Below are positions 11,074 through 53,094 of a DNA stretch of 64,000 nt, piece by piece. The notes under the pieces are model-generated. The model was not told where the DNA came from, did no database searches, and saw only the letters and a list, made by a program, of their open reading frames with translations. The translations under genes were made by a program, and so were the position numbers. Numbering within the stretch: the stretch's first letter is position 1; every line of letters begins with the position of its first letter. This DNA is from Algoriphagus machipongonensis (lineage in GTDB: Bacteria > Bacteroidota > Bacteroidia > Cytophagales > Cyclobacteriaceae). The DNA lies in NCBI RefSeq assembly GCF_000166275.1, contig NZ_CM001023.1, forward strand, positions 4,033,001 to 4,097,000. The letters are read 5' to 3'.

Positions 11074-11100
11074 GGATATATTTCATTCAGAGAACATAAA

Positions 11101-11135
11101 AAAAAGGAGCCACTGCAAATTAGTGGCTCCTTTTT
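11101..11135. terminator. Bidirectional terminator between convergent genes
   Basis: Arms AAAAAGGAGCCACT and AGTGGCTCCTTTTT form a 14-bp stem around a seven-base loop. The hairpin lies between the GNAT gene (plus) and the sulfatase (minus) and has A and T runs that serve both directions. Confidence 0.9.
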
Positions 11136-11153
11136 GTTTCTTAGCAAAACTTA

Positions 11154-12830
11154 TCAATCCTTTCTTCGCTCCAGGATCTTTTCTACTTTTTCTTTAGAGG
11201 TCCCGTAGATTCTTCCTTCCGAAGCATCCTCTACATAGCGATCAATATATTGCTGACTAAGCTCTGGGCTGTCTTTGTATTTGACGCGCATCTTCTCCAA
11301 ACGCTCATGAAGGTCAGCTCGAACTTCTGCATATTCCGGATCATCATACACATTCTTCAGCTCTTTAGGATCTTTATTACGATCGATCAACTCCCATTCA
11401 TCTTCTACAAAATAGTAGTGGATCAATTTGTAGTCTTTCGTCACGATCGCATAGTGCCTGTTGACCATATGTTCTGCAGGGTATTCGTAGTAATGATAGT
11501 ACACTTCATCTCGAGTCCACTGATCTTCATTTCCAGTTAGGAGTGGCATCATGCTTTCTCCTTGCATATCAGCCGGAGCGTCTACCCCTGCGGCATCCAA
11601 AAATGTCTGTGCGAAATCTAGGTTTTGGACCATCGCATCGGATTTAGTACCTGCTTTGGCTTTTCCTGGCCATGCAACAATCAAAGGCGTTTTGAAGGAC
11701 TCATCGTAAACAAATCGCTTGTCAAACCAACCGTGCTCTCCCAAGTAAAATCCCTGATCAGAAGTGTAAACGATAATGGTATTTTCCAAAAGATTGTTTT
11801 CCTCTAGGTAATCAAGAAGCCTTCCTACATTTTCATCCACAGACTTAATGGTTCCCAAATAGTCTTGCATATATCGTTGGAACTTCCATTTCATCATATC
11901 TTCCTCAGTCATGGAGGGATATATTTTCTTAAACTCCTCGGCTACTTTTCCATAGGCTTTGTCAAAATTTGCCTTCTGTTCTGGAGTAAACCTTTTCCAA
12001 TGATTGACAAATCTACCTTTATCATTCCTAATTTCCTCTATGCCCAGTTCATCCATCGTTTCTGGGTAAAGCTTGTTATCACCTGACCAACCCATATCCT
12101 TCAAAATGCTCATTTCAGCTTCAGCAGCAGCATTTGTTCTACCAGAATAATCGTCAAACAAAGTAGCAGGCTCTGGGAATGTTCTATTCGTGAATTCTTC
12201 TAAATGGCGCTCTGCCATTAACCAGGCTCTATGCGGTGCTTTATGTAGATACATCAGCATAAATGGGTCTTCTTCTTTTCTTTCATTAGAAAGCCAATCC
12301 AAAGTCATGTCCGTAATAATATCTGTTACATAACCCTCCACTTTGATATTGCCTTCATTCTTGGTGATAAAATCAGGATTGTAATATGAGCCTTGACCCG
12401 GCAAAATCTTAAACTGATCAAAACCTTTTGGATTATTCCCAAAGTGTAGTTTACCAAACATAGCCGTCTGATATCCACCATCTTGTAATAGCTGAGGGAA
12501 GGTCACATTAGTAGTATCAAAAGGATAATAGTTATCAATCTTCCCATTTAAATGCGAGTGTTTACCCGTCAAAATGGTGGCTCTTGAAGGAGCACATATC
12601 GAATTGGTAACCGAGGCATTGGTAAACAAAATCCCCATATCTGCAATCCTATCGATATTTGGAGTTTCGATCAGGCTATTATCATAAGCCGAAATCGCCT
12701 GATAAGCATGATCATCAGACATGATGAAAATGATGTTGGGACGCTGAGATTTTTCTTCCTTTGCTTCTTGACATCCTGTCAAAAGAGTGATTCCTAGAAA
12801 GAATGAAAGAATTAAATGAATGTATTTCAT
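11154..12830 (-). CDS. S1-family sulfatase lipoprotein (copy A of a tandem pair)
   Basis: A 558-residue arylsulfatase-type enzyme that removes sulfate esters from glycans. Lipobox LLTGC places Cys20 as the lipid anchor, so it is probably surface or periplasmic. Metal site DD at 39-40 (IMSDDHAYQ) and the formylglycine motif CAPSRATILTG with Cys79 are intact; TSDQGFYLGEHGWFDKR is the second metal block. The overall pattern resembles S1 sulfatases of the N-acetylglucosamine-6-sulfatase-like group, but substrate is inference. It is a close paralogue of the neighbouring gene at 13028-14728. No formylglycine-generating enzyme is encoded in this window. Confidence 0.92.
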   Translation of the reverse strand: MKYIHLILSFFLGITLLTGCQEAKEEKSQRPNIIFIMSDDHAYQAISAYDNSLIETPNIDRIADMGILFTNASVTNSICAPSRATILTGKHSHLNGKIDNYYPFDTTNVTFPQLLQDGGYQTAMFGKLHFGNNPKGFDQFKILPGQGSYYNPDFITKNEGNIKVEGYVTDIITDMTLDWLSNERKEEDPFMLMYLHKAPHRAWLMAERHLEEFTNRTFPEPATLFDDYSGRTNAAAEAEMSILKDMGWSGDNKLYPETMDELGIEEIRNDKGRFVNHWKRFTPEQKANFDKAYGKVAEEFKKIYPSMTEEDMMKWKFQRYMQDYLGTIKSVDENVGRLLDYLEENNLLENTIIVYTSDQGFYLGEHGWFDKRFVYDESFKTPLIVAWPGKAKAGTKSDAMVQNLDFAQTFLDAAGVDAPADMQGESMMPLLTGNEDQWTRDEVYYHYYEYPAEHMVNRHYAIVTKDYKLIHYYFVEDEWELIDRNKDPKELKNVYDDPEYAEVRADLHERLEKMRVKYKDSPELSQQYIDRYVEDASEGRIYGTSKEKVEKILERRKD

Positions 12831-12869
12831 TGGGATTGGTGAATGGATTACGTTTTAAAATCCTCCTTA

Positions 12870-12886
12870 CCCCCTTTTGAAGGGGG
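12870..12886. repeat. Palindromic intergenic element CCCCCTT-AAGGGGG
   Basis: Seven-base arms CCCCCTT and AAGGGGG flank a three-base loop in the gap between the duplicated sulfatases. The surrounding sequence has the look of a dispersed Bacteroidota intergenic repeat, but I cannot confirm copies elsewhere. Confidence 0.5.
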
Positions 12887-12970
12887 AATTGGTTAGAGGT
12901 ATAATTGAAAATTTCAGATTATTATAAGTAAATATTAAGGCAAATCGGTCAACGTTTTTTAGGCATTGAG

Positions 12971-13026
12971 AACTGTTTACTGATCACTGAACCCTGTCTG
13001 CTGCGACTGCTCACTGCTCACTGCCT
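12971..13026. repeat. Degenerate heptameric repeat with periodic CTG
   Basis: About eight units near 7 bp long (for example CACTGAA, ACTGCTC, ACTGCTC, ACTGCCT) run up to the stop codon of the second sulfatase on the minus strand. The last units are nearly identical, the first ones are diverged. Confidence 0.6.
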
Positions 13027-13027
13027 A

Positions 13028-14728
13028 CTAATTTTCTGTCGAAAGCTTTCTATCCTTAAAGATCTTATCCAGCAACTCGGTATTCTTCCCTCCTGCATAA
13101 GAATTATTCTCCTGCAAGTAATCTAAATACTCATTAAGGTAGCGTTGAGAAATCTGTGAATTATCTCCATACTTTTCTCTCAATCCATCTAGTTGCTCGT
13201 GAAGCTCCGCCTGGATCTCGGCATAGGCTGGGTCATCATACACATTTTTGAGCTCCATTGGATCATTCTTACGATCGATAAGCTCCCATTCGTCTACATC
13301 AAAGTAATAATGAACCAACTTGTAATCTTGAGTCACGATTGCATAATGGCGCTTCACCATATGCACAGATGGGTATTCATAGTAATGATAATACACGGCA
13401 TCCCGGGTCCAATTATCTAAATCTCCGGTCAATAATGGCAAGAGGCTTTCTCCTTGCATATCTGCAGGTGCTTCGATCCCTGCTGCGGCCAAAAATGTCT
13501 GTGCGAAATCCAAATTTTGAACCATCTCATCCGATTTGGTTCCAGCTTGAACTTTACCAGGCCAAGCCATTAATAGGGGTGTTTTAAAGGACTCATTGTA
13601 AATGAATCGCTTGTCAAACCACCCGTGTTCGCCTAGATAAAAACCTTGATCAGAAGTATAGACGATGATGGTATTATCCATTAAATCATTTGCTTCCAGA
13701 TAATCCAAAACACGACCTACGTTTTCATCAACTGCTTTGATGGTACCGAGGTAATCCTGCATGTAGCGTTGGTATCTCCACTTCATTTTATCTTCCTCTG
13801 TCATGTTAGGATACGCTTTTTTGAAGTCTTCTATAACTTTTTCATAAGCCTTATCCCAAACTGCTCGCTGCTCAGGGTTCATACGACCAACTTCACCTTC
13901 AAACGCCGCTTTATCCCATCCCGAGGTAGGTTCAATCCCCAATTCGTCCATGACTTCTGGACGAATTTTAGAGTCACCAGCCCAGTGCATATCTTTCAAC
14001 AGGTTCATTTCTGCTTCTTTTGCTGCTCTTCCTCTTCCAGAATAATCATCAAAAAGCGTTGCTGGCTCCTTAAATGTTCGGTTGGTAAATTCCTCCACAT
14101 GTCTTCCTGCCGGCAGCCATTCTCTATGCGGCGCTTTGTGTAGGTACATCAACATAAAAGGATCTTCATCATTTCTTTCATTCTCCAGCCAATCCAAAGT
14201 CATGTCAGTAATAATATCTGTCACATAGCCTTCTACCTGAATATTACCTTCATTTTTGGTGATGAAATTCGGGTTATAATATTTACCCTGTCCTGGTAAG
14301 ATTTTATATTGATCAAAGCCTTTAGGACTATTTCCAAAATGAAGTTTACCAAACATGGCAGTCTGATATCCTGCATCTTGTAGAATTTGTGGGAAAGTCA
14401 CATTGGTCGTATCAAAAGGAAAGTGGTTATCCACCTTACCATTAATATGTGAGTGCTTTCCTGTCAATATTGTAGCCCGGGAAGGAGCACAAATAGAATT
14501 CGTTACAGAGGCATTCGTAAATAACATCCCCATATCTGCGATTCTATCAATGTTAGGGGTTTCTATCAGCGTATTGTCGTAAGCTGAGATGGCCTGATAC
14601 GCATGATCATCAGACATGATAAAGACGATGTTCGGCCTTTTTTGCTCAGTTTTCTCCTCTTGGCTAGTGCAGGATATCAGCAATGGAATCGCGCATAAGC
14701 CAATAAGCAAGGATGAAATATTTTTCAT
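13028..14728 (-). CDS. S1-family sulfatase lipoprotein (copy B of a tandem pair)
   Basis: A 566-residue sulfatase closely related along its whole length to the gene at 11154-12830. Lipobox LLISC gives Cys20. The metal block IMSDDHAYQAISAYDN and formylglycine motif CAPSRATILTG with Cys80 are intact. The two copies differ most in the middle (about 240-290, near the MDELGIE segment) and at the C-terminus, where this copy has extra residues. That pattern suggests duplication followed by shift in substrate loops; this is inference. Both point the same way with a 197-base gap holding repeats. Confidence 0.92.
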   Translation of the reverse strand: MKNISSLLIGLCAIPLLISCTSQEEKTEQKRPNIVFIMSDDHAYQAISAYDNTLIETPNIDRIADMGMLFTNASVTNSICAPSRATILTGKHSHINGKVDNHFPFDTTNVTFPQILQDAGYQTAMFGKLHFGNSPKGFDQYKILPGQGKYYNPNFITKNEGNIQVEGYVTDIITDMTLDWLENERNDEDPFMLMYLHKAPHREWLPAGRHVEEFTNRTFKEPATLFDDYSGRGRAAKEAEMNLLKDMHWAGDSKIRPEVMDELGIEPTSGWDKAAFEGEVGRMNPEQRAVWDKAYEKVIEDFKKAYPNMTEEDKMKWRYQRYMQDYLGTIKAVDENVGRVLDYLEANDLMDNTIIVYTSDQGFYLGEHGWFDKRFIYNESFKTPLLMAWPGKVQAGTKSDEMVQNLDFAQTFLAAAGIEAPADMQGESLLPLLTGDLDNWTRDAVYYHYYEYPSVHMVKRHYAIVTQDYKLVHYYFDVDEWELIDRKNDPMELKNVYDDPAYAEIQAELHEQLDGLREKYGDNSQISQRYLNEYLDYLQENNSYAGGKNTELLDKIFKDRKLSTEN

Positions 14729-14968
14729 AAGAATATAGTATAAATTGGGTATCAGGGTTATTCGACTCTATCAAATCTAACATTAATCTATTCTGTGGCA
14801 AAAGCCGAGATCTTGTCGGGAATAGACTTTGTAAGAGGTGAACCTTTCAAGATAAGCTTAAAGTGTGAATATATTTTAAGCTTTAAATCTTTCCTAATAA
14901 AATTGGTGCATTTGGACTAATAGTTATAATTTGGCTAACCCAAAATTTATTTATTGACTCAGTTTCCT

Positions 14969-16414
14969 ATGCAAAAGATTTTAATTTTTATTACGTTTTT
15001 GCTCTCCATCTCATCTTATGCTCAGGAAGCAAAGAAGCCAAACGTCCTCTTTATTATTGCTGATGATTTGACCACCACTGCAATTGGAGCTTATGGAAAT
15101 CCCGTTCCCAAAACCCCAGTTATTGATCAGCTTGCGAAGGAAAGTACCGTATTTTCACATGCTTATAGTCAATACCCTGTTTGTGGCCCATCCCGAGCTT
15201 CGATGATGTTTGGGTATTATCCCAGCGCAACGCAAACTTATGGCTATGTAAGTGGTAGAAAAAATGTAGGCTCAGACCGACCTTCTTTGGCAGAACTTTT
15301 TAAAGAAAAGGGCTATTACACCGCCCGAGTGAGCAAGATCTATCACATGGGCGTGCCAGGAGATATAGAAAAGGGCTCAGATGGTCAAGACGATCCAGCT
15401 TCTTGGACAGAGAAATTTAACTCAAAAGGTCCCGAATGGACCGCCGAAGGCAAAGCCGAGTTGGTGCAAAATAATCCTGATGGCAGCATAGAGCGAAAAG
15501 GTGGCAATGTGATGACGATTGTCCAGGCAGATGGAGATGACCTTGTTCATTCAGATGGAAAAACTGCTAAAAAAGCCTCTGAATTAATTCGTGAACATAA
15601 AGACGAACCCTTCTTTTTAGCGGTTGGGTTTGTTCGTCCTCATGTCCCTTTTGTCGCCCCGGCAAGCTACTTCGACCCTTACCCTTTTGCAAAAATTACT
15701 ACACCAAAACAAGCTCCGAATGATTGGGAAGATATCCCTGAGCGTGGTATCAATTATGTCACCAGTGTAAATGCGGAGATGAATCAGGAGCAGAAGCAAA
15801 AAGCGATTGCAGCTTATTATGCTTCTGTTTCTTATATGGATACCCAAGTAGGAAAAGTACTCACAACGCTAAAAGAAGAAGGCTTAGAGAACAACACTAT
15901 CATTGTGTTTACATCTGATCATGGGTTTCACCTAGGCGAACATGAGTTCTGGATGAAAGTCAGTTTACATGAAGAGTCTGTAAAAGTCCCTATGATGATC
16001 AAAGTGCCTGGGAAAAACCCTGCGGTAGTCCACTCATTTACAGAACTGATTGACCTTTACCCTACTCTGGCCGATTTGGCTGGATTGGATTACCCTAAGG
16101 CTATTCAAGGGAAAAGTCTAAAGCCTTTAATAGAAAACCCAAATAAGAAAGTTAGGGACATGGCATTTTCTGTCAGTCAAGGAGGGAGGTCATTTCTGGT
16201 CAGAACGGAAAAATGGGCTTATATCCAATATAACGAAGATGCTTCCGCTGGAATGGAGCTTTTTGATATGGAAAATGACCCCAAGCAATTCAACAATTTG
16301 GCGAATGACCCAGCATATTCGAAAGCCCTTAAAGAAATGCAATCAAGACTAATCCAAAAGCTAAAGAAAGTCCGAAAAAATGATTTGGAAATTGACTACA
16401 ACTCTGCGAAATGA
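14969..16414 (+). CDS. S1-family sulfatase, iduronate-2-sulfatase-like, secreted
   Basis: A 481-residue sulfatase with signal peptide (1-18, ending SSYAQ). The formylglycine motif is CGPSRASMM with Cys72; the metal block is IIADDLTTTAIGAYGN. The CGPSR form followed by Gly-Tyr-Tyr-Pro and the HEFWMKVSLHEESVKVP segment resemble iduronate-2-sulfatase-like S1 enzymes. I chose ATG 14969 over an upstream TTG at 14954, because the signal peptide then starts naturally. The last four bases overlap the next gene (ATGA), so the two are translationally coupled and likely act on the same glycan. Confidence 0.9.
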   Translation: MQKILIFITFLLSISSYAQEAKKPNVLFIIADDLTTTAIGAYGNPVPKTPVIDQLAKESTVFSHAYSQYPVCGPSRASMMFGYYPSATQTYGYVSGRKNVGSDRPSLAELFKEKGYYTARVSKIYHMGVPGDIEKGSDGQDDPASWTEKFNSKGPEWTAEGKAELVQNNPDGSIERKGGNVMTIVQADGDDLVHSDGKTAKKASELIREHKDEPFFLAVGFVRPHVPFVAPASYFDPYPFAKITTPKQAPNDWEDIPERGINYVTSVNAEMNQEQKQKAIAAYYASVSYMDTQVGKVLTTLKEEGLENNTIIVFTSDHGFHLGEHEFWMKVSLHEESVKVPMMIKVPGKNPAVVHSFTELIDLYPTLADLAGLDYPKAIQGKSLKPLIENPNKKVRDMAFSVSQGGRSFLVRTEKWAYIQYNEDASAGMELFDMENDPKQFNNLANDPAYSKALKEMQSRLIQKLKKVRKNDLEIDYNSAK

Positions 16415-42651: not shown

Positions 42652-44145
42652 ATGGATCTTCCCATTTTTGACCTCCTTGTTTTTTTAATCTATATGTTGG
42701 CGATAGTTGGCTTCGGGATTTCCTTTTCCTTTCGAAAAAGAACTTCATTGGACTTTACTACTGGGGGAGGAAGGCTACCCACTTGGGCGATAGGCATGTC
42801 AATTTTCGCCACTTTTGTGAGTTCAATCAGCTTTCTAGCCTTGCCGGGAAATGCCTACTTATCGAATTGGAATGGTTTTGTGTTCAGCTTATCAATTCCA
42901 CTGGCAGCATGGATTGCAGTCAAGTTTTTTGTTCCCCTTTATAGAAAATTGAATAGCGAATCAGCTTATTTCTACTTGGAGCAGCGTTTTGGTCTTTGGG
43001 CAAGAGTCTATGCCTCTGTTTGTTATTTATTGACTCAGTTAGCCCGTATGGGGACCATCCTGTATTTATTGGCATTACCCATGAACGCACTATTTGGGTG
43101 GAGCATACCCATGATCATCATTATCACCGGAATCTCTGTGATTGGGTATTCCATGATGGGTGGAATTGAAGCCGTCATCTGGACCGATGCTATCCAAGGA
43201 ATTGTATTAATTCTTGGGGCAATCACCTGCTTGGGCATCATTTTCTGGGAGATCCCTGGTGGGCCAACAGAAGTTTTTCGAATTGCTGCAGAGGGAGATA
43301 AATTCAGTTTAGGGAGCTTCCAATTAGACTTTACAAGCGCTACATTTTGGATGATTTTAGTTTATGGCTTATTTATCAATCTGCAGAATTTCGGGATAGA
43401 TCAGAATTACGTTCAACGCTATATCAGCGCTAAAAATGAAAAAGAAGCCATCAAATCTACTTGGCTTGGAAGTCTACTCTATGTTCCGGTTTCCTTAATA
43501 TTTTTCTTCATCGGAACAGCTCTTTTTGCTTTCTATCAAGCACAGCCAGATCTGCTTCCAGCTACTATTTCGGGCCTTGAAAACAGCGATAAGGTATTTC
43601 CTTATTTTATCGTCTCTCAATTACCTACCGGTATTACAGGATTGTTGATCGCATCGATTTTTGCAGCTGGAATGAGCTCAGTTTCTACCAGTGTAAATAG
43701 CTCTGCTACAGTCATACTTTCTGACCATTATAAAAAGTACATCCACCCTAATCCTTCAGAGAAAACCTCTTTATTCGTTTTGAAAGCAGCCTCTGTCCTA
43801 ACAGGCCTCCTAAGCATCTTTGTTGGACTTGCTTTCAATGGAGTAGAAAGTGCTTTGGATGCTTGGTGGGCCTTGGCCTCCATTTTTAGCGGAGGAATAT
43901 TAGGCTTATTCCTACTTGGGTTTATAGTAAAATCCACCCAAAGTAATCAGGCCGCCATTGCCGTATTAGCTGGAGTATTGGTCATCTTTTGGATGAGTTT
44001 GGGAAGCTTTTTCTTGACAGGAGATCTGGATATTTATCAAAACCCGCTCCATAGCAATATGACGATCGTTTTGGGAACATTGACCATTTTTATACTAGGT
44101 TTCTTGCTTACGCTTTCCGGCAAAAAGAAAAAACCAAGCCTTTAA
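42652..44145 (+). CDS. Sodium:solute symporter (SSS family)
   Basis: A 497-residue inner-membrane symporter with 13 or so hydrophobic segments. Early SSS hallmarks GGGRLPTWAIGMSIFATFVSSISFLALPG and the central GMSSVSTSVNSSATV sodium-binding region are present. It follows the lyase gene by 29 bases and ends the operon, so it probably imports the sugar that the lyase cleaves (SSS members include sialic-acid importers). Substrate inferred. The terminator stem overlaps its last codons. Confidence 0.9.
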   Translation: MDLPIFDLLVFLIYMLAIVGFGISFSFRKRTSLDFTTGGGRLPTWAIGMSIFATFVSSISFLALPGNAYLSNWNGFVFSLSIPLAAWIAVKFFVPLYRKLNSESAYFYLEQRFGLWARVYASVCYLLTQLARMGTILYLLALPMNALFGWSIPMIIIITGISVIGYSMMGGIEAVIWTDAIQGIVLILGAITCLGIIFWEIPGGPTEVFRIAAEGDKFSLGSFQLDFTSATFWMILVYGLFINLQNFGIDQNYVQRYISAKNEKEAIKSTWLGSLLYVPVSLIFFFIGTALFAFYQAQPDLLPATISGLENSDKVFPYFIVSQLPTGITGLLIASIFAAGMSSVSTSVNSSATVILSDHYKKYIHPNPSEKTSLFVLKAASVLTGLLSIFVGLAFNGVESALDAWWALASIFSGGILGLFLLGFIVKSTQSNQAAIAVLAGVLVIFWMSLGSFFLTGDLDIYQNPLHSNMTIVLGTLTIFILGFLLTLSGKKKKPSL

Positions 44146-44156
44146 GACTTGGTTTT
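44130..44156 (+). terminator. Terminator overlapping the symporter stop
   Basis: Arms AAAACCAAG and CTTGGTTTT enclose the stop codon region, followed by a T run. It closes the 40661-44145 operon. The stem starts inside the coding region. Confidence 0.8.
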
Positions 44157-44338
44157 TCTGGTTTTAAATCACATCAATATTCAAAGACACTGTGTTTTCA
44201 ACTAGCAATTTTGCCCAGCTCTAATGAAAATCAGGTCACTAGCACAAAAGTTTATTAAAGTTAACATTTTCAAGAAGTTACTCCATATAAAACAAGTTAA
44301 GTTTTTTTTACTAGATCGGTCCTCTGTATGAGCAGTAG

Positions 44339-44391
44339 CGGTTGGTGTATGAAGCGTTTGGCATTTCGAAGCACTTCATTTTCAGTTTACC
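44339..44391. repeat. Degenerate direct repeat, unit A
   Basis: A unit of about 53 bases begins CGGTTGGTGTATGAAGCG and ends TTTCAGTTTACC. It aligns along its length with unit B, roughly two bases in three identical by eye. Lies in the gene-free left flank of the ATPase/methyltransferase island. Confidence 0.5.
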
Positions 44392-44441
44392 GTAAATTTC
44401 ATTAATTGCTCTACATTTCATTTTAACCACTTATTGCCCAA

Positions 44442-44495
44442 CGGTTAGTATAAGAAGCGTAGGGGAGTTTTGAAACACTGCACTTTCTGTTTACC
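44442..44495. repeat. Degenerate direct repeat, unit B
   Basis: A unit of 54 bases begins CGGTTAGTATAAGAAGCG and ends TTTCTGTTTACC. A third partial box TTTCGGTTTACC lies at 44651-44662. The preceding GCCCAAC resembles an integron attC core site (RYYYAAC) but no matching partner site was found. Confidence 0.5.
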
Positions 44496-44799
44496 ACTTA
44501 GCCAATCCAAATATTTTTATAATTCAATTTACTTAAACATTATCAAAATTTTGGATTGGTGGACTATCTGAACTCTCGAACACCACCGAATTCCCTATGT
44601 TTTTTTAGCCCATGTGGTATGCCGTGTATTTTCCCTTTAGTAGCAGAATGTTTCGGTTTACCACTGTGCGATGGGCAGCCATACTCTTTGACAAGTTTTG
44701 GTTTGCGGGGTTGCATTAAGCGATTTGGCAATATGTATAGCTGAGAAGGGTAGGCTGCTTATTGGACATTTATCGAACATTCACCTTGTTATCGGACAT
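44496..44799. other. Gene-free flank of the island
   Basis: About 300 bases without a supportable gene. A 62-codon open frame at 44556 has a Cys/Pro/Phe-rich, non-protein-like composition and includes a repeat box, so I do not call it. The sequence looks like decayed repeat DNA. Confidence 0.5.
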
Positions 44800-44979
44800 T
44801 TATTGGACGCTTCTACCTTTATAAAGGTATTTGGATGTTTTTAAATCGCCTGTTTTTATCAATAAACCCTTTTCTACTAAATCAATAATGTCTCTACGAG
44901 CATTTCGATCGCCAATATCAAAGTTTTCAGCATAAGCAGTAGTTACTATTTCTCCCTTCGATTTCCATAACGGTCTCGG
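44800..44979 (-). pseudogene. C-terminal winged-helix remnant (Fic- or AlbA-type protein)
   Basis: On the minus strand a 59-codon frame runs from a stop at the 5' side to the TAA at 44800-44802. It reads as SKGEIVTTAYAENFDIGDRN, then ARRDIIDLVEKGLLIKTGD and ends YLYKGRSVQ. The segment R-x-x-x-D-I-x-D-L-V-E-K-G-x-L is the C-terminal winged helix seen in Fic-family and COG2865 (AlbA/Schlafen-like) regulators. No upstream body of such a gene is present, and a stop lies directly before it, so it is a truncated relic. Such genes are often mobile or defence linked. Confidence 0.6.
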
Positions 44980-45129
44980 CTATGAAACGTGCCCCGAAGG
45001 GCATGTTTTTATAGCGATTGTTGTAGGTAGTTTTTTTTCTTTTTTCTGGTTAGTGAAGGAATACTCATTTGCAATTTTTGGATTGTGGGCTGGCTTGTGC
45101 AAATTGCAAATGTGAATGACTTGTGAAAA
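44980..45129. other. Short gene-free spacer beside the ATPase gene
   Basis: Contains a small hairpin (GTGCCC, CGAA, GGGCAT) at about 44989-45004 and an AT-rich run, but no gene. It lies just downstream of the last gene of the minus-strand island operon; no canonical terminator is evident. Confidence 0.4.
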
Positions 45130-46671
45130 TTACTCTCTCGAATCACCTTCATTACGTTCTTTCTCTATTTCAAATGGAATCCGCAATAAGTTGTCTTTTA
45201 TGAATTTGACTGTATCATGTCCTATTTTTCCTGTCTTATTCCAAGCTTTCCATTCAGACACGCCATCGTAAACAACATGCCTTAGAAAAACGAGTACACC
45301 ATTATCATCTTTTATCTCTTGCCAGTGTGGGTGGTTTGGGTTAAAGACAACAACTAATTCATAGTTCTCATTATTTTTTGTTGCCGAATCAGATATTACG
45401 TAAGGATCAAATGGAGACATATCTTCATCAGTATAGAGTTTTACAATCAAACTCCCCAGTTTGATAATTACAGGTTCTGATATTCTATTCACTACAGCCT
45501 CTAACAAGAAATTATTTGCTTTTTCTAAAGCAATTTCTGGTGGGATTTCAATATTCTCTATGAGATCAACGGTTACTTTGTTTTCCATTTCATGATGCAA
45601 ATTGCCCATGGCTACTTCAATAGTCTTAACATCGGATATATCTACAGACTCCCTTACTCGTCTTGTTAGGGCTATCCTAACGAGTTCTTTAACTTCTTCT
45701 TTTAGTTTGTTTTCTAGTTGTTCTTCTTGTTCACCAGACCACAGAATTTGATCTTTTGTATGACTGACATCGAAACCGTCAATAAAAATTTCTCCAATGA
45801 GCCTTTGATTTACCAAATCATTCCTACCTCCATCTTGCTCACCAAATATTTCACTTGGACGATAATTTGTATTTATAACCCTTTCGGATTGAACAAGGGC
45901 AAAGCCAGCCTGACCTCGATCACCTCGATTTAAAACGCCTGCCCAACCTTTAACAGGTTTATCGTCAACAACAAATTCAAATTCCTTTTTTGTTCTTTCA
46001 CCTTCAAAGTTTTCAACTAAAAGTTCGTCTAGGTTTTTCCAGCTTAAGTATTTATCCATCCACTTTATTTCTAATTTCTCAGAAATTAAATCATAGCGAT
46101 AGATTGAAGATAAATAAGAACTAACCTTAGATAAGGTTCTACCCACAAACCTTCTATGCAAGCCCCAAACTCTAATAATTGTGTAATGTGAATCTTCTGG
46201 AACGTCCGTTTCATTCAATTCAAGAGAGATATTACCCTCCTCTATTTTTTCAATATCTACAAGAATGGAGAATTCTTTTTTACTTCCAAGTCGAGAAGTA
46301 GTAACAGACCATTTGTCACCAAGCCAAAACGAAGAGGTTTTTAGACCTAAACCGTATTTGCTGCGTCCTGTATTGATTTCTGGTTTTTGACCTGTATTAA
46401 ATGCTCTTTTTAGGACTGCTTCATCCATCCCAATGGAGTTGTCCTTAATTTCAAAGTAATCATCTGAGAGGTTTTCTCCTCTATAGTATTCTATTAGGAC
46501 GTGTAAGGTCTCACCATCTATTTTAAGTTGCTCGTCTAGAACATCTTTATTTTCATGATAAGCTTGAGTAGAGTTATCTATATATTCTGCCAGTGCATAC
46601 CATAGCTTATAAGATAGCCTTTTATATGATTCAGCAATATTTGCGGTAAAAGTTAAATTGAAATTCTCCAT
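45130..46671 (-). CDS. GHKL (HSP90/MutL/MORC-like) ATPase, last gene of island operon
   Basis: A 513-residue predicted ATP-dependent conformational machine. Bergerat-fold motifs are clear: helix LAEYIDNSTQAY with Glu29 and Asn33 (motif I), DNSIGM at 77-82 (the D-x-G-x-G position, here with Ser), and GRSKYGLGLKTSSF near 102-115 (the lid). The C-terminal half is unrecognised and acidic. Prokaryotic GHKL ATPases of this style have been predicted in restriction-modification-like operons (Iyer, Abhiman and Aravind, 2008). It lies five bases after the nuclease-fold gene. No transmembrane segment; cytoplasmic. Confidence 0.82.
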   Translation of the reverse strand: MENFNLTFTANIAESYKRLSYKLWYALAEYIDNSTQAYHENKDVLDEQLKIDGETLHVLIEYYRGENLSDDYFEIKDNSIGMDEAVLKRAFNTGQKPEINTGRSKYGLGLKTSSFWLGDKWSVTTSRLGSKKEFSILVDIEKIEEGNISLELNETDVPEDSHYTIIRVWGLHRRFVGRTLSKVSSYLSSIYRYDLISEKLEIKWMDKYLSWKNLDELLVENFEGERTKKEFEFVVDDKPVKGWAGVLNRGDRGQAGFALVQSERVINTNYRPSEIFGEQDGGRNDLVNQRLIGEIFIDGFDVSHTKDQILWSGEQEEQLENKLKEEVKELVRIALTRRVRESVDISDVKTIEVAMGNLHHEMENKVTVDLIENIEIPPEIALEKANNFLLEAVVNRISEPVIIKLGSLIVKLYTDEDMSPFDPYVISDSATKNNENYELVVVFNPNHPHWQEIKDDNGVLVFLRHVVYDGVSEWKAWNKTGKIGHDTVKFIKDNLLRIPFEIEKERNEGDSRE

Positions 46672-46676
46672 TCTGG

Positions 46677-47465
46677 TTAGTTTTCTTTAATGTAGTACTC
46701 ACTATTCTCTGATTTAATCAGATAGTATTTCTTGTTTATATTCAGAGGATTCTGCCCTTTCGGAATTAGATAAGTTGTATTTCCATCATCCAGCCTTTCC
46801 CACTTAGTTTTTCGTCCATTATCAATGACTATTAACTCCTCACCATTTCCTACATTCAGGATTTTAGGTGATGATACAGTCAGCATATTTGCGGGATATT
46901 TTGGAAATTTACATCTTGAACGAGCAATTTCAATTACTGGGTACTCTCCATCTATTTTGTATGCTTCGACCCCATCTGGATGATCAAACATTCCGAATAC
47001 TAAAAGCCCAGTTCTTGGGTAAGATTTAGCTTCATTTGCCCATTTTGGGTATTCATCGACCATTATCAATACTCCAGGATCATCTTTGAGGATTAATTTC
47101 TTCAATCTCTTTTCACATAAATCGGAGTTTTTGCCAACTAAGTATGTTGATATTTCACTTGCATTGTATCGACCGTGTGAAAAGACTCGAATCTGAGTTT
47201 CGGTGTGTCCCTTGAATGGCTTTTTGCCTAGCTCGATCTCAATGACGTACCACCTACTATAGTCTTTTTTAATTAAGCATAAATCTGGCTGACTTGATTC
47301 TCCGTTATACTCAATAGTCTTTTTGAGAGGTAGAGTATAGTATTCTGGGAATACTTCCTCTGAACGGGCGATAATTGTACGTTCGAGTGTGTCTTCTACA
47401 TAAGTTCCAGGTTCGAACTCTTCATACCAGTCATCTAGGATAAGTAATTTTGACTTTCCTTTCAT
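46677..47465 (-). CDS. Nuclease-fold candidate with D...E-x-E motif
   Basis: A 262-residue protein of unassigned family. Residues about 59-82 read QPDLCLIKKDYSRWYVIEIE then LGKK, that is P-D61, a beta-strand with E76-I-E78, and Lys81-Lys82 soon after. This is the hydrophobic-strand layout of PD-(D/E)xK nucleases, with the second acidic residue of an E-x-E type as in BamHI instead of the usual Lys. A Gln at 91 and helices follow. The C-terminal 80 residues are a small beta-rich domain with GKRK-like basic patch (NGRKTKWERLDDGN). Its start overlaps the methyltransferase stop by four bases. Proposed as the effector nuclease; inference. Confidence 0.6.
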   Translation of the reverse strand: MKGKSKLLILDDWYEEFEPGTYVEDTLERTIIARSEEVFPEYYTLPLKKTIEYNGESSQPDLCLIKKDYSRWYVIEIELGKKPFKGHTETQIRVFSHGRYNASEISTYLVGKNSDLCEKRLKKLILKDDPGVLIMVDEYPKWANEAKSYPRTGLLVFGMFDHPDGVEAYKIDGEYPVIEIARSRCKFPKYPANMLTVSSPKILNVGNGEELIVIDNGRKTKWERLDDGNTTYLIPKGQNPLNINKKYYLIKSENSEYYIKEN

Positions 47466-48715
47466 ATTCTATCACCCATAAAATGTTTTGTGCTTTCTTT
47501 TATCAAATCATAAGTTAAGTCCGATTCTCCATTGAGTCTGTGGTTTTCTTTGAATGGATTAATATCTGACAGGATTACGATTCTGTCCGTAGCTGTCGCT
47601 TTTCCTTTTGTTTCTCCCCATATCCGAGTGGTTTTATCAAATCCTTGAATATAGTCTGAGAAAATCCAAACGTTTTTAAAAAGCTTATTTTCTTTGACCA
47701 TAACCGCGAACTCTCTAGCTAGTGGTATAACACTATCCTTTGATTTAGCAACATCGCCTATCACAAAAACACCAACTCCATTGGGTTTAAGCAGCTTTTT
47801 AAATTGACTTACTGTGTCTTTTGAAAACTTAATCCATTCAAACAAATTCAGATCATCATCTAGTTCTTCGGAAATCAATTCAGGATTGGCATCTAAAAAC
47901 CAAGACCTAATCCAATTTTGGCGAGCGTAGTTGACTATGCCTAAATAAGGTGGAGAAGTAAGGATTAAATCAACTTTGCCTTTCAGTTTTTTAAACTCAG
48001 GTGTACTTGAAAGCGTTTTAGCATCGCTTCTATAAATCGAACTTTGACTTCTAGGAAAAGTGTGTTTTTCAAAGGTTCTTTTGATCTTCTCCCTGAGCAA
48101 TTGAAAAGTGTTACGATATTCTCTATTGAGTTGGTTAGTCTGAACAAAGCGTCTCACATATTCAGGTGACATACTGAATGTATTAGGCATACTAATGGAC
48201 AAGTAACCTGAACTCCCATCTTTTCTTTCTCCACCATGCATAATACCTAGTATAGTTCCAACAAGGATTTTTTCTTCCTTGCTTTTAGGCTCTTTTAGCA
48301 TGAGTTTTAAGTAGCATAATTCTGCTAGAGTCCGAGGGTGAAAAATCAAATGGATTTCATCTGGCTGAGCTTTTGCTTCGGGCAGAAACAAAGGGTAGTC
48401 ATAATTTTCTTCTAGCTCATCAATTAATTGCAAAATAGCTTCGGTGTCAGCTTGAACAGATTTTGCATGGCTTAAAGCAAGGGCAATAGGGTTTAAATCA
48501 GAAGCTACTGATTTCCGATTTAAAATTCTCGCTTCAAGAATCGTTGTTCCCCTTCCTGAAAATGGGTCATAAACAAGGTCTCCTTCATCGGTAAAAAACC
48601 TAATAAAGTAACTCGCCAAACTTGGTGGGAAGGAACCAAGATAGGAGCAGAGAGAGTGCAGAGGGTCATTGCTTCTTTTGTTTGCCCAAGGTGTAATATA
48701 GTTTACTTCATTCAT
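47462..48715 (-). CDS. DNA N4/N6 methyltransferase
   Basis: A 417-residue SAM-dependent DNA methylase. The SAM-binding motif I is DPFSGRGTT at 50-58 and the catalytic motif IV is TSPPY at 253-257, in the order I then IV, with about 190 residues between that could hold the target-recognition region. TSPPY indicates methylation of an exocyclic amino group (adenine N6 or cytosine N4). Its start overlaps the large ATPase by four bases. Likely the modification enzyme of the island. No separate specificity subunit is present. Confidence 0.9.
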   Translation of the reverse strand: MNEVNYITPWANKRSNDPLHSLCSYLGSFPPSLASYFIRFFTDEGDLVYDPFSGRGTTILEARILNRKSVASDLNPIALALSHAKSVQADTEAILQLIDELEENYDYPLFLPEAKAQPDEIHLIFHPRTLAELCYLKLMLKEPKSKEEKILVGTILGIMHGGERKDGSSGYLSISMPNTFSMSPEYVRRFVQTNQLNREYRNTFQLLREKIKRTFEKHTFPRSQSSIYRSDAKTLSSTPEFKKLKGKVDLILTSPPYLGIVNYARQNWIRSWFLDANPELISEELDDDLNLFEWIKFSKDTVSQFKKLLKPNGVGVFVIGDVAKSKDSVIPLAREFAVMVKENKLFKNVWIFSDYIQGFDKTTRIWGETKGKATATDRIVILSDINPFKENHRLNGESDLTYDLIKESTKHFMGDRI

Positions 48716-50964
48716 GTCATTACACTGTCCTTTTCAACACTTTCAGTTATAATTGGCTCAAAGAAGTCGTTTATCATACCGCAAACAGTTTCACTTGCGT
48801 TTTTCAGGTATTCGTCACGTAATTTCTCAACAAATTCTCCTTGAAGTGACTCTTGATCTTCAGAGAATAGTTTTGACGGTTCTACTTTGTTCGCCATGAA
48901 TGCATAAAAGGAAATATGCTCTAAGTACTTATTCTGAATGCTATCTACAGCTTCTTCACTGTAACGTTGAGCACGAGCGACAAGCTTTGTCAGATTCTTA
49001 TTTTCAGCTGAAACATAAATGATAACTCCATCTTGATCGTCAAGAACTTGAGCTACACTTAAATCATTCCATTCATTTTCTTGGAACCATGGGTTATTTC
49101 TGTCTACAAATTCCACTTGGATATTTGGAGTTTTATTATCCCCGTCTCCTGAAGGATTGGAATCTTCTGGTCTTTCTATGGCAACTACGTCAACTGCAGA
49201 ATTGAATGACTTTTGCCTAGGCGGTCGCAGTTCTAAAGTGATTTGGCCTTCATCACCAATTTGTGTTTCATCTGAAACTCTAAAGTGAGCCAATCCATAG
49301 CCATCAACTACACGAGCTGTTCCCGTGAACATACCGAAAGATTGAGGCTCAATAAATGCAACGAAAGTTTCAGCTTTATTGAAGTAGCTTGGGTGAGCAT
49401 CTGTTTTGAACTTGATTGCGAAGCTTTTGTTTTGATACACTTCTTTGGGAGAAGGTGTAACAATCTCAAAAAATGTTGGTGGGTCTTCAACTGGAATCTC
49501 AGGTAATTTCTCACTATTATGTGATTCATTTGTTTTTGTGGCGGTTACTGAATTGCCACTTCCTGAACTTTTTAAGAATGTGTTGATTCTTCGGGCTAAT
49601 CGCTTCCTTAGATTATCAAGTGCCGAAGTATCTTCTTGTGTAAAATAGCGTTGTTTCCTTTCTCTATCTAGTCGCTTCAATTCATCATCTGCTGCAAGTG
49701 TATCTAGGGTTAATTTTTTTAATTCTTCAAGAATTGAAGTGTCTCGAAGTGATTCTCTTGTGCTGCTGAAAAGCTGTCTTTTGGAATCATTATCCATGTT
49801 GTCAGCTTCAATTTGAACTATCAAGTAGTTGTCAAGGAATGGTAGTTTTAAGTCGTTTTTGATTAGCGTGTTACCAATGACTCCTTGTTTTTGACCATTG
49901 AATGTGATAACAATTGGTTGGGAAGGCATCACATAATTTTTGATCCTTGTTTTTGGATTATCACCTGTGGTGTTTAATACCCAATAGTAGATAATCACCT
50001 TCCCGTCCTTAAAAGTCAGAGGCACTTCTTGGCGGTAGTCTAAGAAGTCTGTATTTGTCAAGAGTCTATTATTTCCTGTAACTGTTCTATTTACGGGCTT
50101 TGAACCACGTTCATCCGAAATTGTAAATGGAATAATTGGGTCAAATAAGTAATTGTGAGCCAAATACCAAAGGCCTGTTCCTGGAGCAGTCATATTTCCC
50201 TTGAATTTGCCCAAGTCCATCATAATATGTCTCACTAATGTGCCTGGTTCAAATTCTTTATCGTCAATTTCAGTAACAAATGGTTGTCCAGTGCCTTTGT
50301 CGACCATGTATTCGTACCACTCATGCTTGTCTTTATTGACATCGCCTGGGTTTATACGGACAATAGTCCAAGCTACTTTTGGTTTTTTACGTTTGTCTCC
50401 GAAGAATGGTCTTGAAATAATTAGTGTCAAATTATTGTAGGATAAAGCAGTTGAGCCGCCTTGTCCATAGGCTCCCATCAAGTGTAGTTTGCCAATTTTA
50501 TTGTTTCCATTAAGGTCAAGAATCGTCTTAGAAAACTGTTCAGGTTCTAATCCAATACCCAAATCTCTAATCTCGACTGTAGGTTTTGTTTTTTGACCTG
50601 AATCTGTCAATGTTACCTTGACTTTGGGCGAAAGACTTCTTAGTCTTTCATCATTGCTGTCTGAAATCTTCGAAATTTTACCTTGTTCAATATTGAACCA
50701 TAATTCGCTCGCTCTTCTTGGCGTTTTAATATCTGTAGGTTCTTCTTGGTCAATCCATTCTTTTTCGAGAACGGCATCAATTGCATTGGTAATTCTTTCA
50801 GTTACTCCTGCAGCAGGGTCGGTTCCAATATTTATAGTCGCTAGATTGTTTTTTCTATTTCCAACTGGTTCAAAGCGATATTTCGCTTTGCCAATTTTCA
50901 TTATCACTTCTCTGACTTGCTCTGGCTTGTGTGCTGCAAGAAGGCTTTTAAATATTTCTTTCAT
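48712..50964 (-). CDS. Large GHKL ATPase of the island
   Basis: A 750-residue predicted ATPase distinct from the 513-residue one. Bergerat motifs: ERITNAIDAV (Glu57, Asn60, Asp63), RDLGIGLEP at 133-141 (D-x-G-x-G), and MGAYGQGGSTALSYNN at 163-178 (lid). Residues about 195-450 form a middle domain containing TLVRHIMMDLG and SSTRESLRD. A charged segment precedes a beta-rich domain at about 505-610, then a helical tail (about 640-740) with LVARAQRYSEEAVDSIQNKYLEHI. Second gene of the operon; begins two bases after the 76-residue gene. Function as a molecular switch is inferred from the fold. Confidence 0.82.
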   Translation of the reverse strand: MKEIFKSLLAAHKPEQVREVIMKIGKAKYRFEPVGNRKNNLATINIGTDPAAGVTERITNAIDAVLEKEWIDQEEPTDIKTPRRASELWFNIEQGKISKISDSNDERLRSLSPKVKVTLTDSGQKTKPTVEIRDLGIGLEPEQFSKTILDLNGNNKIGKLHLMGAYGQGGSTALSYNNLTLIISRPFFGDKRKKPKVAWTIVRINPGDVNKDKHEWYEYMVDKGTGQPFVTEIDDKEFEPGTLVRHIMMDLGKFKGNMTAPGTGLWYLAHNYLFDPIIPFTISDERGSKPVNRTVTGNNRLLTNTDFLDYRQEVPLTFKDGKVIIYYWVLNTTGDNPKTRIKNYVMPSQPIVITFNGQKQGVIGNTLIKNDLKLPFLDNYLIVQIEADNMDNDSKRQLFSSTRESLRDTSILEELKKLTLDTLAADDELKRLDRERKQRYFTQEDTSALDNLRKRLARRINTFLKSSGSGNSVTATKTNESHNSEKLPEIPVEDPPTFFEIVTPSPKEVYQNKSFAIKFKTDAHPSYFNKAETFVAFIEPQSFGMFTGTARVVDGYGLAHFRVSDETQIGDEGQITLELRPPRQKSFNSAVDVVAIERPEDSNPSGDGDNKTPNIQVEFVDRNNPWFQENEWNDLSVAQVLDDQDGVIIYVSAENKNLTKLVARAQRYSEEAVDSIQNKYLEHISFYAFMANKVEPSKLFSEDQESLQGEFVEKLRDEYLKNASETVCGMINDFFEPIITESVEKDSVMT

Positions 50965-50966
50965 CG

Positions 50967-51197
50967 CTAAAAGTTGAATGAGTCAATGTTGTTCTTTAAG
51001 TTCTTTTTATAGAGTGTTTCCATAGTTTTTAGCTCATCCTTTATTGCTTTAATCATTTTCTGAACATCGTCTTCTGAGTATTCATAATTGTTAATGTTTG
51101 AGCATTTCGATAAGCTGCGAATCCCTGCAAGGAGCTTGTCTACTCGCTTAGAGGCTACACGCTTAAATCTATCTTTCTTTAGTTCAGAATTGTCCAT
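50967..51197 (-). CDS. Small helical protein, first gene of island operon
   Basis: A 76-residue basic, helical protein. It has SKRVDKLLAGIRSLSKCSNI then NNYEYSEDDVQKMIKAIKDE, a pattern I have the impression is seen in small proteins encoded beside phage- or defence-related genes, but no named domain can be given. The tight packing (two bases to the ATPase gene) and protein-like composition make it a likely real gene. Possible regulator or antitoxin-like partner; unproven. Confidence 0.6.
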   Translation of the reverse strand: MDNSELKKDRFKRVASKRVDKLLAGIRSLSKCSNINNYEYSEDDVQKMIKAIKDELKTMETLYKKNLKNNIDSFNF

Positions 51198-51390
51198 AGT
51201 TCTGATATTTATTCAAATATAGCGTCAAAATTAATATTATTTACTACATAATACAATATATAGTAGTTTTTCTTTTCGTGGTTGGGAAGAAAACAGCTCT
51301 TTTGGTTTTTCAGCTTTGGCTTTGGGTGTCGGCAAAAACCAAATGTGCTTGAATGTGCGTTGGCTTTTTTTGTATGCTGCACAACACCTG
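51198..51390. other. Upstream region of the island operon
   Basis: Gene-free. It should contain the operon promoter on the minus strand. An A/T-rich run (TATTATTTACTACATAATAC) lies near 51234-51253. No confident promoter box was identified. Confidence 0.4.
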
Positions 51391-51412
51391 TATATACGTA
51401 ATTGCGTATATA
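51391..51412. repeat. 22-bp imperfect palindrome TATATACG...CGTATATA
   Basis: Arms TATATACG (51391-51398) and CGTATATA (51405-51412) flank a near-palindromic centre; only one symmetric pair mismatches. It could be a regulator site or recombination site. It lies about 190 bases upstream of the first island gene. Confidence 0.7.
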
Positions 51413-51478
51413 TCCATTATAGATTTTGTGCTTAGTCTAATTTTATACATCTGACTATCAGTGTTTTAATTTGATTAC

Positions 51479-51512
51479 CCGACAACAAATGACAACAAAC
51501 GTTTGTTGTCGG
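51479..51512. repeat. Palindromic triple half-site GACAACAAA
   Basis: Positions 51491-51510 are a perfect 20-bp palindrome GACAACAAACGTTTGTTGTC. A further direct copy GACAACAAA stands immediately before at 51481-51489, and the outer CCG/CGG pair extends the symmetry to an 11-base inverted pair. It looks like an operator with one extra half-site, or a recombinase site. No gene is assigned. Confidence 0.8.
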
Positions 51513-51597
51513 ATAAAGTGAATCGATATCAAAAAAATCATCTAATCTCTGATACCTAAACAAAACCATAAGAACGGTATCAAAATCTTTAGTTCCT

Positions 51598-51615
51598 ATA
51601 CCCAGTACTGGGTAT
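51598..51615. repeat. 18-bp perfect palindrome ATACCCAGTACTGGGTAT
   Basis: A perfect 18-bp inverted repeat, followed by a run of T. The T run makes a terminator possible on the plus strand, but no plus-strand gene ends here. I have an impression that similar TACCCAGTACTGGGTA motifs occur in Bacteroidota intergenic regions; not checked. Confidence 0.7.
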
Positions 51616-51643
51616 TTTTTTTCATTTTTAAGGGGGAAAACCT

Positions 51644-51678
51644 AAAAAAAAAGGGGCTACCAGCAATGCTGATAGCCC
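51644..51678 (-). terminator. Terminator of the transhydrogenase operon
   Basis: Arms GGGCTA-CAGC and GCTG-TAGCCC with one mismatch and a three-base loop. On the minus strand it is followed by a run of about nine T. It is 31 bases past the pntB stop. Confidence 0.85.
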
Positions 51679-51708
51679 AGGTATAGGTTTGAAAACAAAA
51701 AAATAAAA

Positions 51709-53094
51709 TCACATTTCCTTCATTTCAGTCACCACTTTGGTGATCGTCTGCTTGGCATCACCAAATAGCATAAGGCAATTTGGATAGCCAAAGAGTTCAT
51801 TTTCCACCCCTGCATAGCCTTTGCCCATACTTCTTTTACTGACGATCACCGTTCTGGCTTTATCTGCATTCAATACCGGCATTCCATAAATTGGACTTTG
51901 TGGATTATTTCTTGCAGCTGGATTTACCACATCATTCGCTCCCACGATCAATACCAAATCGGTATTTTGAAAATCATCATTTATTGATTCCATTTCAATC
52001 AATTTGTCATAAGAAATATTGGCCTCGGCTAAGAGCACGTTCATATGTCCAGGCATCCTTCCAGCGACCGGGTGAATTGCAAATTTGAAGTCTATATTTC
52101 TTTTCTCGCATTGCTCCATTAATTCACGGATCACATGTTGCGCTTGAGCTACGGCCATTCCATAACCCGGAACTACAATCACAGAAGAAACAGAGTCAAA
52201 AAGCATGGCTGTTTCCTCTACTCCTACCTCTTTCACAGTGATGGATGGCCCATCACCTGCGGGACCAGAAGTAGTCTGTCCGAAACCTCCTAGCAACACA
52301 TTGATTAGAGAGCGGTTCATCGCTTTACACATAATCTGTGTCAGGATAATCCCTGATGCTCCTACCAAAGAACCCGCTACAATCAGAACATTATTATTCA
52401 AAATGAAACCAGTGGCGCAGGCTGCCATTCCTGAGTAAGAGTTTAATAAGGAGATTACCACTGGCATATCCGCCCCTCCAATGGGTATCACGGTCAATAC
52501 TCCCAAAACCAATGCAATGACAATCAATACAATGATCAAAATAGGGTCTGATTGATCCATCACATTAAATACGGCAGCTGTTAAAAAGCTTAGAAACAAC
52601 ACCAAATTGAGCGGGTGTTGACCTTTGAAAGTGATGGGGGAACCCGAAATATTTCCATTCAATTTTAGGAAAGCGATAATTGAACCTGTAAATGTCAGAC
52701 CTCCAATAAATACCGAAACAATAATACTGATGACTGTAACCAGCTCAATGGATTCCATTTGAACGGTGGTACGAAGGAAGTAATCTGACAAGGCAACAGT
52801 AAAGGAAGCTAAGCCACCAAAACCATTGAATATGGCCACCATTTCAGGCATTTTGGTCATTTCCACCTTGTTGGCATAATAGAGTCCGATTGCAGATCCC
52901 AAGACAATACATCCAAATATTTCCACCATGGAAATAACCTGGATTTGAAGTAAGGTAGCGATGATGGCAATCAACATCCCCAAGGCAGACAATCTGTTTC
53001 CCTGCCGAGCGGATTTGGTTTTATTCATCATTTTGATCCCCAGCACAAAAAGGATGGAGGCAACCAAGTAAGCTATTTGAATAGTAATACTCAT
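51709..53094 (-). CDS. pntB: NAD(P) transhydrogenase beta subunit
   Basis: A 461-residue membrane protein of the proton-translocating transhydrogenase. The N-terminal about 260 residues are hydrophobic segments (about nine); the C-terminal about 180 residues are the NADP(H)-binding domain III with VIVVPGYGMAVAQAQH, HPVAGRMPGHMNVLLAEA and DVVNPAARNNPQSPIYGMPVL. Couples hydride transfer from NADH to NADP with proton movement. Its start overlaps the pntAB stop by four bases. Third gene of a three-gene operon. Confidence 0.97.
   Translation of the reverse strand: MSITIQIAYLVASILFVLGIKMMNKTKSARQGNRLSALGMLIAIIATLLQIQVISMVEIFGCIVLGSAIGLYYANKVEMTKMPEMVAIFNGFGGLASFTVALSDYFLRTTVQMESIELVTVISIIVSVFIGGLTFTGSIIAFLKLNGNISGSPITFKGQHPLNLVLFLSFLTAAVFNVMDQSDPILIIVLIVIALVLGVLTVIPIGGADMPVVISLLNSYSGMAACATGFILNNNVLIVAGSLVGASGIILTQIMCKAMNRSLINVLLGGFGQTTSGPAGDGPSITVKEVGVEETAMLFDSVSSVIVVPGYGMAVAQAQHVIRELMEQCEKRNIDFKFAIHPVAGRMPGHMNVLLAEANISYDKLIEMESINDDFQNTDLVLIVGANDVVNPAARNNPQSPIYGMPVLNADKARTVIVSKRSMGKGYAGVENELFGYPNCLMLFGDAKQTITKVVTEMKEM

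Follow-up and report, generated by a model that had tools for sequence, protein, structure and literature searches.

A candidate restriction-type operon in Algoriphagus machipongonensis joins a conserved methyltransferase-GHKL core to an exchangeable downstream module

How might a restriction-type operon act that encodes a DNA methyltransferase, a nuclease-like protein and two GHKL ATPases, and has no helicase? The question is raised by five minus-strand genes, here called A to E in order of transcription, within a 64,000-nucleotide window of the Algoriphagus machipongonensis genome (G000:C1:4033001-4097000; a single-contig genome of 4.79 Mb), which an initial annotation had read as a candidate for an unnamed five-gene anti-phage system. 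The open reading frames (ORFs) of that annotation proved exact in coordinates, lengths, gaps and overlaps, with a gap of 2 bases between A and B, overlaps of 4 bases each between B and C and between C and D, and a gap of 5 bases between D and E. The absence of a helicase gene from the operon also holds, as searches with four family libraries give none. The genes are as follows.

Gene A, 50967-51197, minus strand: 76 amino acids (aa), first gene; candidate autoregulator or partner of B.
Gene B, 48712-50964, minus strand: 750 aa, GHKL+S5 ATPase, paraMORC-like, with a C-terminal beta-rich and helical extension.
Gene C, 47462-48715, minus strand: 417 aa, amino-methyltransferase (product N4-methylcytosine, m4C, or N6-methyladenine, m6A) with DPFSGRGTT (motif I) followed by TSPPY.
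Gene D, 46677-47465, minus strand: 262 aa, predicted PD-(D/E)xK-type nuclease with a C-terminal beta domain.
Gene E, 45130-46671, minus strand: 513 aa, prokaryotic MORC-type GHKL ATPase.

Here we report that A, B and C form a core whose downstream effector is swapped among two types of D-E pair and a DUF1016/YhcG nuclease. On balance, and judging from sequence comparison, we favor the view that this is a restriction-type, accessory, horizontally exchanged defense operon without a helicase, in which GHKL ATPases would gate a replaceable, predicted nuclease.

The exchange is seen among 13 close relatives, those found in species genomes and cited here by our own locus labels. The order A-B-C-D-E is kept in eight of them (L005, L007, L010, L012, L013 with a truncated A, L014, L015 and L016), spanning six named genera and one metagenome bin, a recurrence far beyond chance. 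Four others (L006, L008, L011 and L017) have a DUF1016-type gene in the position of D-E, and the last (L009) ends within C at a contig edge. Two of the four DUF1016-type loci (L008 and L011) retain an intact A-B-C without D-E, which ties C to A-B and not solely to D-E. The DUF1016 assignment was made by Pfam on L006 alone (YhcG_C 9.3e-59, DUF1016_N 4.7e-46), the genes of L008, L011 and L017 being linked to it by about 70-73% DNA similarity; the L008 copy is short (186 aa) and near a contig end. The proposed five-gene system therefore stands in that five genes recur in order, and gives way to a more modular unit in that the last two are an exchangeable cassette.

Sequence identity switches within the operon. 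Relative to L005, the A, B and C proteins of the window are 95, 94 and 89% identical, and D and E 64 and 60%; relative to L015, the values are 82, 66 and 70% for A, B and C, and 90 and 89% for D and E, with a crossover in DNA identity near 47,400-47,900. In approximately unbiased (AU) tests, the B data reject a clade of the window and L015 (p 4.5e-38), while the E tree unites these two (support 98/95) and the E data reject the window with L005 (p 8.6e-8), both pairs having been picked after the identities were seen. With 13 of 14 rows labeled by their downstream module (two D-E types or DUF1016), the B tree requires 7 changes of label, against a shuffled mean of 6.6, and on the E tree each D-E type occupies one side of a branch. 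The identity switch and the conflict between the B and E trees argue that D and E move as one cassette while C remains with A-B.

Conserved non-coding DNA extends over 35-172 bases upstream of the operon in 9 of the 13 relatives and over 62-123 bases downstream in 5, the downstream part being common to D-E and DUF1016 operons.

Segment just 3' of E, 45056..45123, minus strand: non-coding, 72-85% identity in 5 of 13 relatives (L006 and L017, DUF1016 type; L013, L015 and L016, D-E type).

Other peculiarities of these loci deserve mention. In two metagenome bins, homologous inserted DNA of about 930 bases with a PLD-type gene (L006:12013-12855 and L017:1712-2557; Pfam on L006 only) stands where B should end and C begin, with breakpoints that differ between the two. 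L006 is labeled Verrucomicrobia, yet its B is 98% identical to that of the window. In L017, direct repeats of 116 bp (75-190 and 4468-4583; 95.7%) bracket the whole operon and are possible recombination ends of a mobile unit. Transposase-like ORFs, recognized by eye, lie directly upstream of the N-terminally truncated A of Leeuwenhoekiella blandensis (L013:8609-9999), where B to E stay open.

What the five proteins are could be settled to different degrees. The reading of C as a TSPPY DNA methyltransferase, of the kind that a type II-like restriction-modification system calls for, is borne out by matches to Pfam N6_N4_Mtase (1.6e-19) and PADLOC MTase_II (1.3e-38) and by motifs DPFSGRGTT and TSPPY that are invariant in 11 of 11 sequences, at a mean column identity of 85%. 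A further match of C residues 38-105 to a PHROG labeled DNA helicase (phrog_16, 2.8e-5) was rejected as a helicase, since it falls in the motif I region and thus in the methyltransferase part. E matches HATPase_c_3 of Pfam at 6.8e-17, keeps the GHKL ATP-binding residues E29, N33, D77, G81, G107 and G109 in 9 of 9 rows, and carries GhXhhpXXRhl, the published S5-domain criterion for prokaryotic MORC. It is 30-32% identical over about 300 residues to two plasmid-borne MORC-related ATPases and matches the MzaB models at 7e-4 and 7e-5; by sequence, nothing meaningful was found for it in the PDB. B is a second GHKL ATPase, very different from E. Its GHKL residues, earlier read by eye, are invariant across 19 rows (E56, N60, D134, G136, G138, G164 and G169), and its predicted structure (predicted local distance difference test, pLDDT, 72) has 163 PDB matches at E <= 0.001, the best 50 of which comprise the Hsp90 family, MORC2/3/4, SMCHD1 and gyrase/ParE (E 1.7e-11 to 1.2e-5); by sequence, its PDB match is topoisomerase VI subunit B (E 0.005). 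The prokaryotic MORC motif occurs in 0 of the 19 rows of the B family. The presence of two distinct GHKL ATPases is upheld. B may be a paraMORC1: the two features compared, its architecture (GHKL+S5 with a C-terminal extension) and its MORC and methylase context, fit.

None of A, B and D passes the Pfam cut-offs. A is present in all 13 close relatives, its N-terminus being lost in L013; a match to the PADLOC Cas9 model (0.0035) was taken as chance. Ratios of nonsynonymous to synonymous substitution (dN/dS) are 0.018 for A and about 0.02 for B against L005, and 0.03 for E against L015, the remaining pairs tried being saturated at silent sites. In D, the residues P60-D61, E76-x-E78 and Q91 are invariant in 10 of 10 rows, in agreement with the nuclease-like D...E-x-E protein of the initial annotation. 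Its model (pLDDT 83) has zero PDB matches at E <= 0.001 and weak ones led by Bax1 and a repair endonuclease, so that D as a PD-(D/E)xK nuclease is a weakly supported prediction.

If the two ends of the operon can part, they may have been separate systems to begin with. One locus, L026:6211-9491, has a methyltransferase, D and E without A or B, and belongs to a phage, given the terminase, portal and head genes beside them; it is possibly a phage-borne restriction or exclusion module. Its D came to light through the E search, the D profile having given 40 pattern matches in viral contigs and zero confirmed. D-E likewise stands with a methyltransferase other than C in genome G467, and the methyltransferase near D-E in L071 is on the opposite strand. 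Such loci suit the view that C-D-E is a complete MORC-type restriction-modification system to which A-B has been joined as an independent GHKL add-on serving many modification systems, as a regulator or a second layer of immunity. The same view would explain why B without D-E adjoins SspBCD-type genes, DndB or other methyltransferases, and why A accompanies B in L024, L028, L029 and L066. We nonetheless consider it unlikely, because L008 and L011 have an intact A-B-C followed by a DUF1016-type gene, without D-E, and because the methyltransferases of L026 and L071 resemble C only remotely (profile E 1.5e-10 and 3e-5).

Distant relatives of B bear on the same matter. They were found at 22 loci (5 on plasmids, 11 genome loci and 6 viral contigs), and in 17 of these B lies beside modification-type genes: Ssp-type phosphorothioation genes in nine (L018, L019, L020, L023, L062, L063, L064, L065 and L067), DndB in two more (L022 and L027), and methyltransferases in six (L024, L028, L030, L032, L066 and L070). 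SspB, SspC and SspD of L064 were named by PADLOC. For the remaining Ssp clusters the assignment comes from resemblance to L023 (identified by Pfam) or from record annotation, with only the ATPase and a 3'-phosphoadenosine 5'-phosphosulfate (PAPS) reductase visible in the L020 stretch; L028 and L066 were credited with cytosine methylases because of matches to an annotated dcm (2e-6 and 2e-19). Profile search places A-like ORFs next to B in L024, L028, L029 and L066, the L024 ORF being a row of the A profile itself, yet with a single-sequence match of 1e-16. A second GHKL gene stands near B at 4 of the 22 loci, by Pfam in L018, L062 and L066 and by record annotation and our own profile in L020, whose second GHKL protein helped build the profile that matched it. 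In a sample of 395 genomes from the phylum, 11 have B, 25 have DUF4007 and 5 have the two together, in each case within 10 kb of each other (hypergeometric p 2.4e-4); the A. machipongonensis genome has zero DUF4007 matches.

The textbook example of a nuclease licensed by a GHKL protein is MutH with MutL, and on that precedent the most telling distant locus is L066, where an operon-like run (5014-15204) holds a cytosine methylase, a MutH-domain nuclease, a 239-aa protein, A, B, a metallophosphatase and a 773-aa GHKL protein. It represents a second dual-GHKL modification system. At L064 (8174-17678) a B-family GHKL gene stands beside SspBCD-type genes, and likewise in L023, L062, L063, L065 and L067; a protein-kinase-like gene is present at the B/Ssp loci of L064 and L065, and HNH-domain genes at L063 and L067. 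One could speculate that B founds a family of chemistry-independent GHKL gates, able to join any DNA-modification system (phosphorothioate, 5-methylcytosine (m5C), m4C or m6A) and to recruit an interchangeable nuclease for restriction, a generalization that we regard as doubtful.

The chemical variety of the modifiers next to B homologues (phosphorothioation-type, cytosine-5 and amino-methyltransferase genes) could instead mean that the operon is modification-dependent (type IV-like) or mark-sensing, with B and E detecting modified incoming DNA and C marking the host for recognition or regulation, not protection. SspE, according to the part of the source available, depends on phosphorothioate (PT) modification of host DNA (PMC9646914). 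This explanation is improbable in our judgment: the four family libraries give no modification-binding domain in A to E, and C, at the heart of the core, is an ordinary methyltransferase.

Upstream of A the window contains a possible regulatory site.

Candidate operator or promoter element, 51243..51264, minus strand: palindrome ACTATAT-N8-ATGTAGT, 67 nt before A, assessed by a shuffle test.

A TAnnTTTG box, which we take to be the -7-like box of Bacteroidota, follows at 36 nt before A. The palindrome, as ACTATAT-N8-AT(G/A)TAGT or a near match, exceeds shuffles in 12 of 13 close loci (the window and 12 relatives, L013 being left out because its A start is lost), at 63-68 nt before A, and the box lies about 30 nt beyond it toward A in 11 of the 13; the L007 palindrome is not above shuffles. 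These close loci are mutually related, so the weight falls on the distant ones, where the palindrome occurs in two of the four loci with A (L024 and L066, not L028 or L029) and in none of 17 sites from 16 of the 18 loci without A, zero of which fall under 5% of shuffles (lowest 11.5%, L064). The palindrome thus tracks A, like the operator of a controller protein, and A may repress the operon through it.

The operon is an accessory insert whose genes travel together. A survey of 98 genomes from the genus and order (own genome included) gave B in three, as the window copy and two distant ones with 29-30% identity in part, and in 11 of the 395 phylum genomes (own included; one even sample). Its upstream neighbor encodes PntB, the beta subunit of NAD(P) transhydrogenase (1.1e-187), and its downstream neighbor a sodium:solute symporter of the SSF type (3e-46); in genome G018 these same neighbors enclose a 559-aa ORF and the operon is absent, and G025 has about 8 kb of other ORFs at this site. 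With gene order kept in 8 of 13 relatives, this patchy distribution and the G018 site speak for linked accessory genes. D gave eight matches in the phylum survey, of which three were counted (own genome, G252 with genes as in L014, and G467); those in G213, G234, G245, G304 and G350 are weak (E 5e-10 to 4e-6) and were excluded. GHKL proteins of the B/E fold do repair and chromatin work, and an orphan methyltransferase with MutL/MORC-like ATPases for epigenetic regulation, mismatch repair or chromosome organization would suit both those roles and the insertion site between housekeeping-type genes, yet it is a very improbable explanation in view of the patchiness of B, the swapping of nuclease modules and the phage-borne methyltransferase-D-E.

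A terminator-like hairpin (51654-51678, minus strand; 11 pairs, 7 of them G-C) with a T run lies 3' of pntB and separates it from the operon. Below the operon, 44150-45000 is non-coding; imperfect repeats lie there, each about 54 bases long (44339-44391 and 44442-44495), along with what by eye is an apparent remnant of the end of an HTH-type gene. Taken with the 116-bp repeats of L017, the repeats below the operon hinted at an array of integron cassettes, an idea that we do not put forward as a claim. An Rfam scan of 44000-52000 gave zero matches, and no tRNA was found in the window.

In the restriction-type defense that we favor, C would mark a fixed motif in host DNA by methylation, B together with the small protein A would be the GHKL gate of this modification core, and the predicted nuclease D with E, a MORC-type ATP clamp, would form a cassette destroying DNA without the mark. 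By analogy with the action of MutL on MutH, E would close on DNA upon ATP binding and license the cut by D, a step that we advance only tentatively. The idea of the initial annotation that GHKL switches stand in for helicase translocation is likewise a hypothesis. A-B-C would decide, and E and D, or DUF1016, would execute; A may repress the operon in addition. Because the nuclease end is replaceable, by either D-E type or by a single DUF1016/YhcG gene, recognition of self and foreign DNA probably resides in A-B-C, with the effector recruited. A classical type II restriction-modification system needs a nuclease and a methyltransferase that recognize one common site, and free exchange of nucleases over a fixed methyltransferase is therefore not to be expected; here C is highly conserved and its nuclease partners are not, which disfavors a nuclease with its own matched site. 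Several observations weigh against a gated defense operon. Both flanking genes are of housekeeping types, with no defense genes among them, and five of the 22 distant B loci (L021, L029, L031, L068 and L069) have no recognized modification gene near B. The lost A start in L013, and B and C broken by the PLD insert in L006 and L017, suggest that A, B or C may be dispensable, or these copies dead. Finally, the nuclease call on D comes from motifs and from fold matches (best E 0.019) mixed with unrelated proteins.

How much of this has been described before? Searches of PADLOC 2023 and NCBIfam with the five proteins named only a generic methyltransferase, other matches being weak or far below cut-off, the best to MzaB; at 21.3 bits against a curated cut-off of 850, the operon does not classify as MZA. 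In PADLOC 2023, NCBIfam 2026, Pfam and the literature searched (a scope outside which preprints and most subscription papers lie), we found no named description of it, and to this extent the system is unnamed, as first proposed. The gene combination is not wholly new, since MORC/paraMORC restriction operons were predicted in 2008 by Iyer, Abhiman and Aravind, whose accessible text likewise joins a MORC ATPase, a DNA methylase and a nuclease (PMC2292703). The annotation had treated two GHKL proteins without a helicase as a departure from that work, which is not supported in that form: the same text reports a helicase-free minority of MORC neighborhoods, with a subset carrying a second GHKL protein, paraMORC1 (PMC2292703). 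What that text does not contain, its figures and supplement, which may already show this locus, lying outside the comparison, is an A-B-C core, protein A, effector swapping, replacement by DUF1016, or an association of B with phosphorothioation genes. The species list of its Figure 1 names Leeuwenhoekiella blandensis, in which L013 lies (PMC2292703), and the protein behind this listing is ambiguous because the genome has, besides L013, a separate locus, recognized by eye, with a cytosine methylase, an HEF_HK-like GHKL protein and a response-regulator-like protein; two-component-like HEF_HK/paraMORC pairs near restriction-modification genes are described in the available part of PMC8011034.

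Two other known systems come close. Ssp systems (SspBCD with SspE or SspFGH) resemble the distant loci, 9 of 22 of which have a B homologue next to SspBCD-type genes, and differ from the window operon, which has no Ssp gene and whose mark would be base methylation; PADLOC gives no Ssp match for A, B, D or E, and none among the best 25 for C. The portions available of PMC12839542 and PMC10853773 make no mention of GHKL, MORC, MutL or HATPase, nor does that of PMC8092258 of GHKL, ATPase or histidine kinase. In a Shedu type with an N-terminal GHKL domain (VcSduA), that domain is proposed, in the part of the source available, to control a PD-(D/E)xK nuclease (PMC12137116); VcSduA is a single fused protein with a DUF4263 nuclease domain, whereas D has no Pfam DUF4263 match. 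No earlier description of the exchangeable effector or of the phosphorothioation link was found in the literature searched.

The consequence for this family of systems lies in the swap itself: the conserved methyltransferase C stays with A and B as nuclease modules, diverged or unrelated, replace one another. This pattern makes testable the 2008 proposal that marks on DNA are linked to the work of nucleases by MORC/MutL-like ATPases, a group akin to the silencing MORCs of eukaryotes. Of 2,678 sspBCD occurrences given in the accessible part of one survey, 196 are with sspFGH and 199 with sspE (PMC8092258), and B is a candidate to partner those phosphorothioation clusters for which no restriction arm is known. 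If B does act as a gate across modification chemistries, it would supply the restriction side for some of the sspBCD clusters without SspE or SspFGH.
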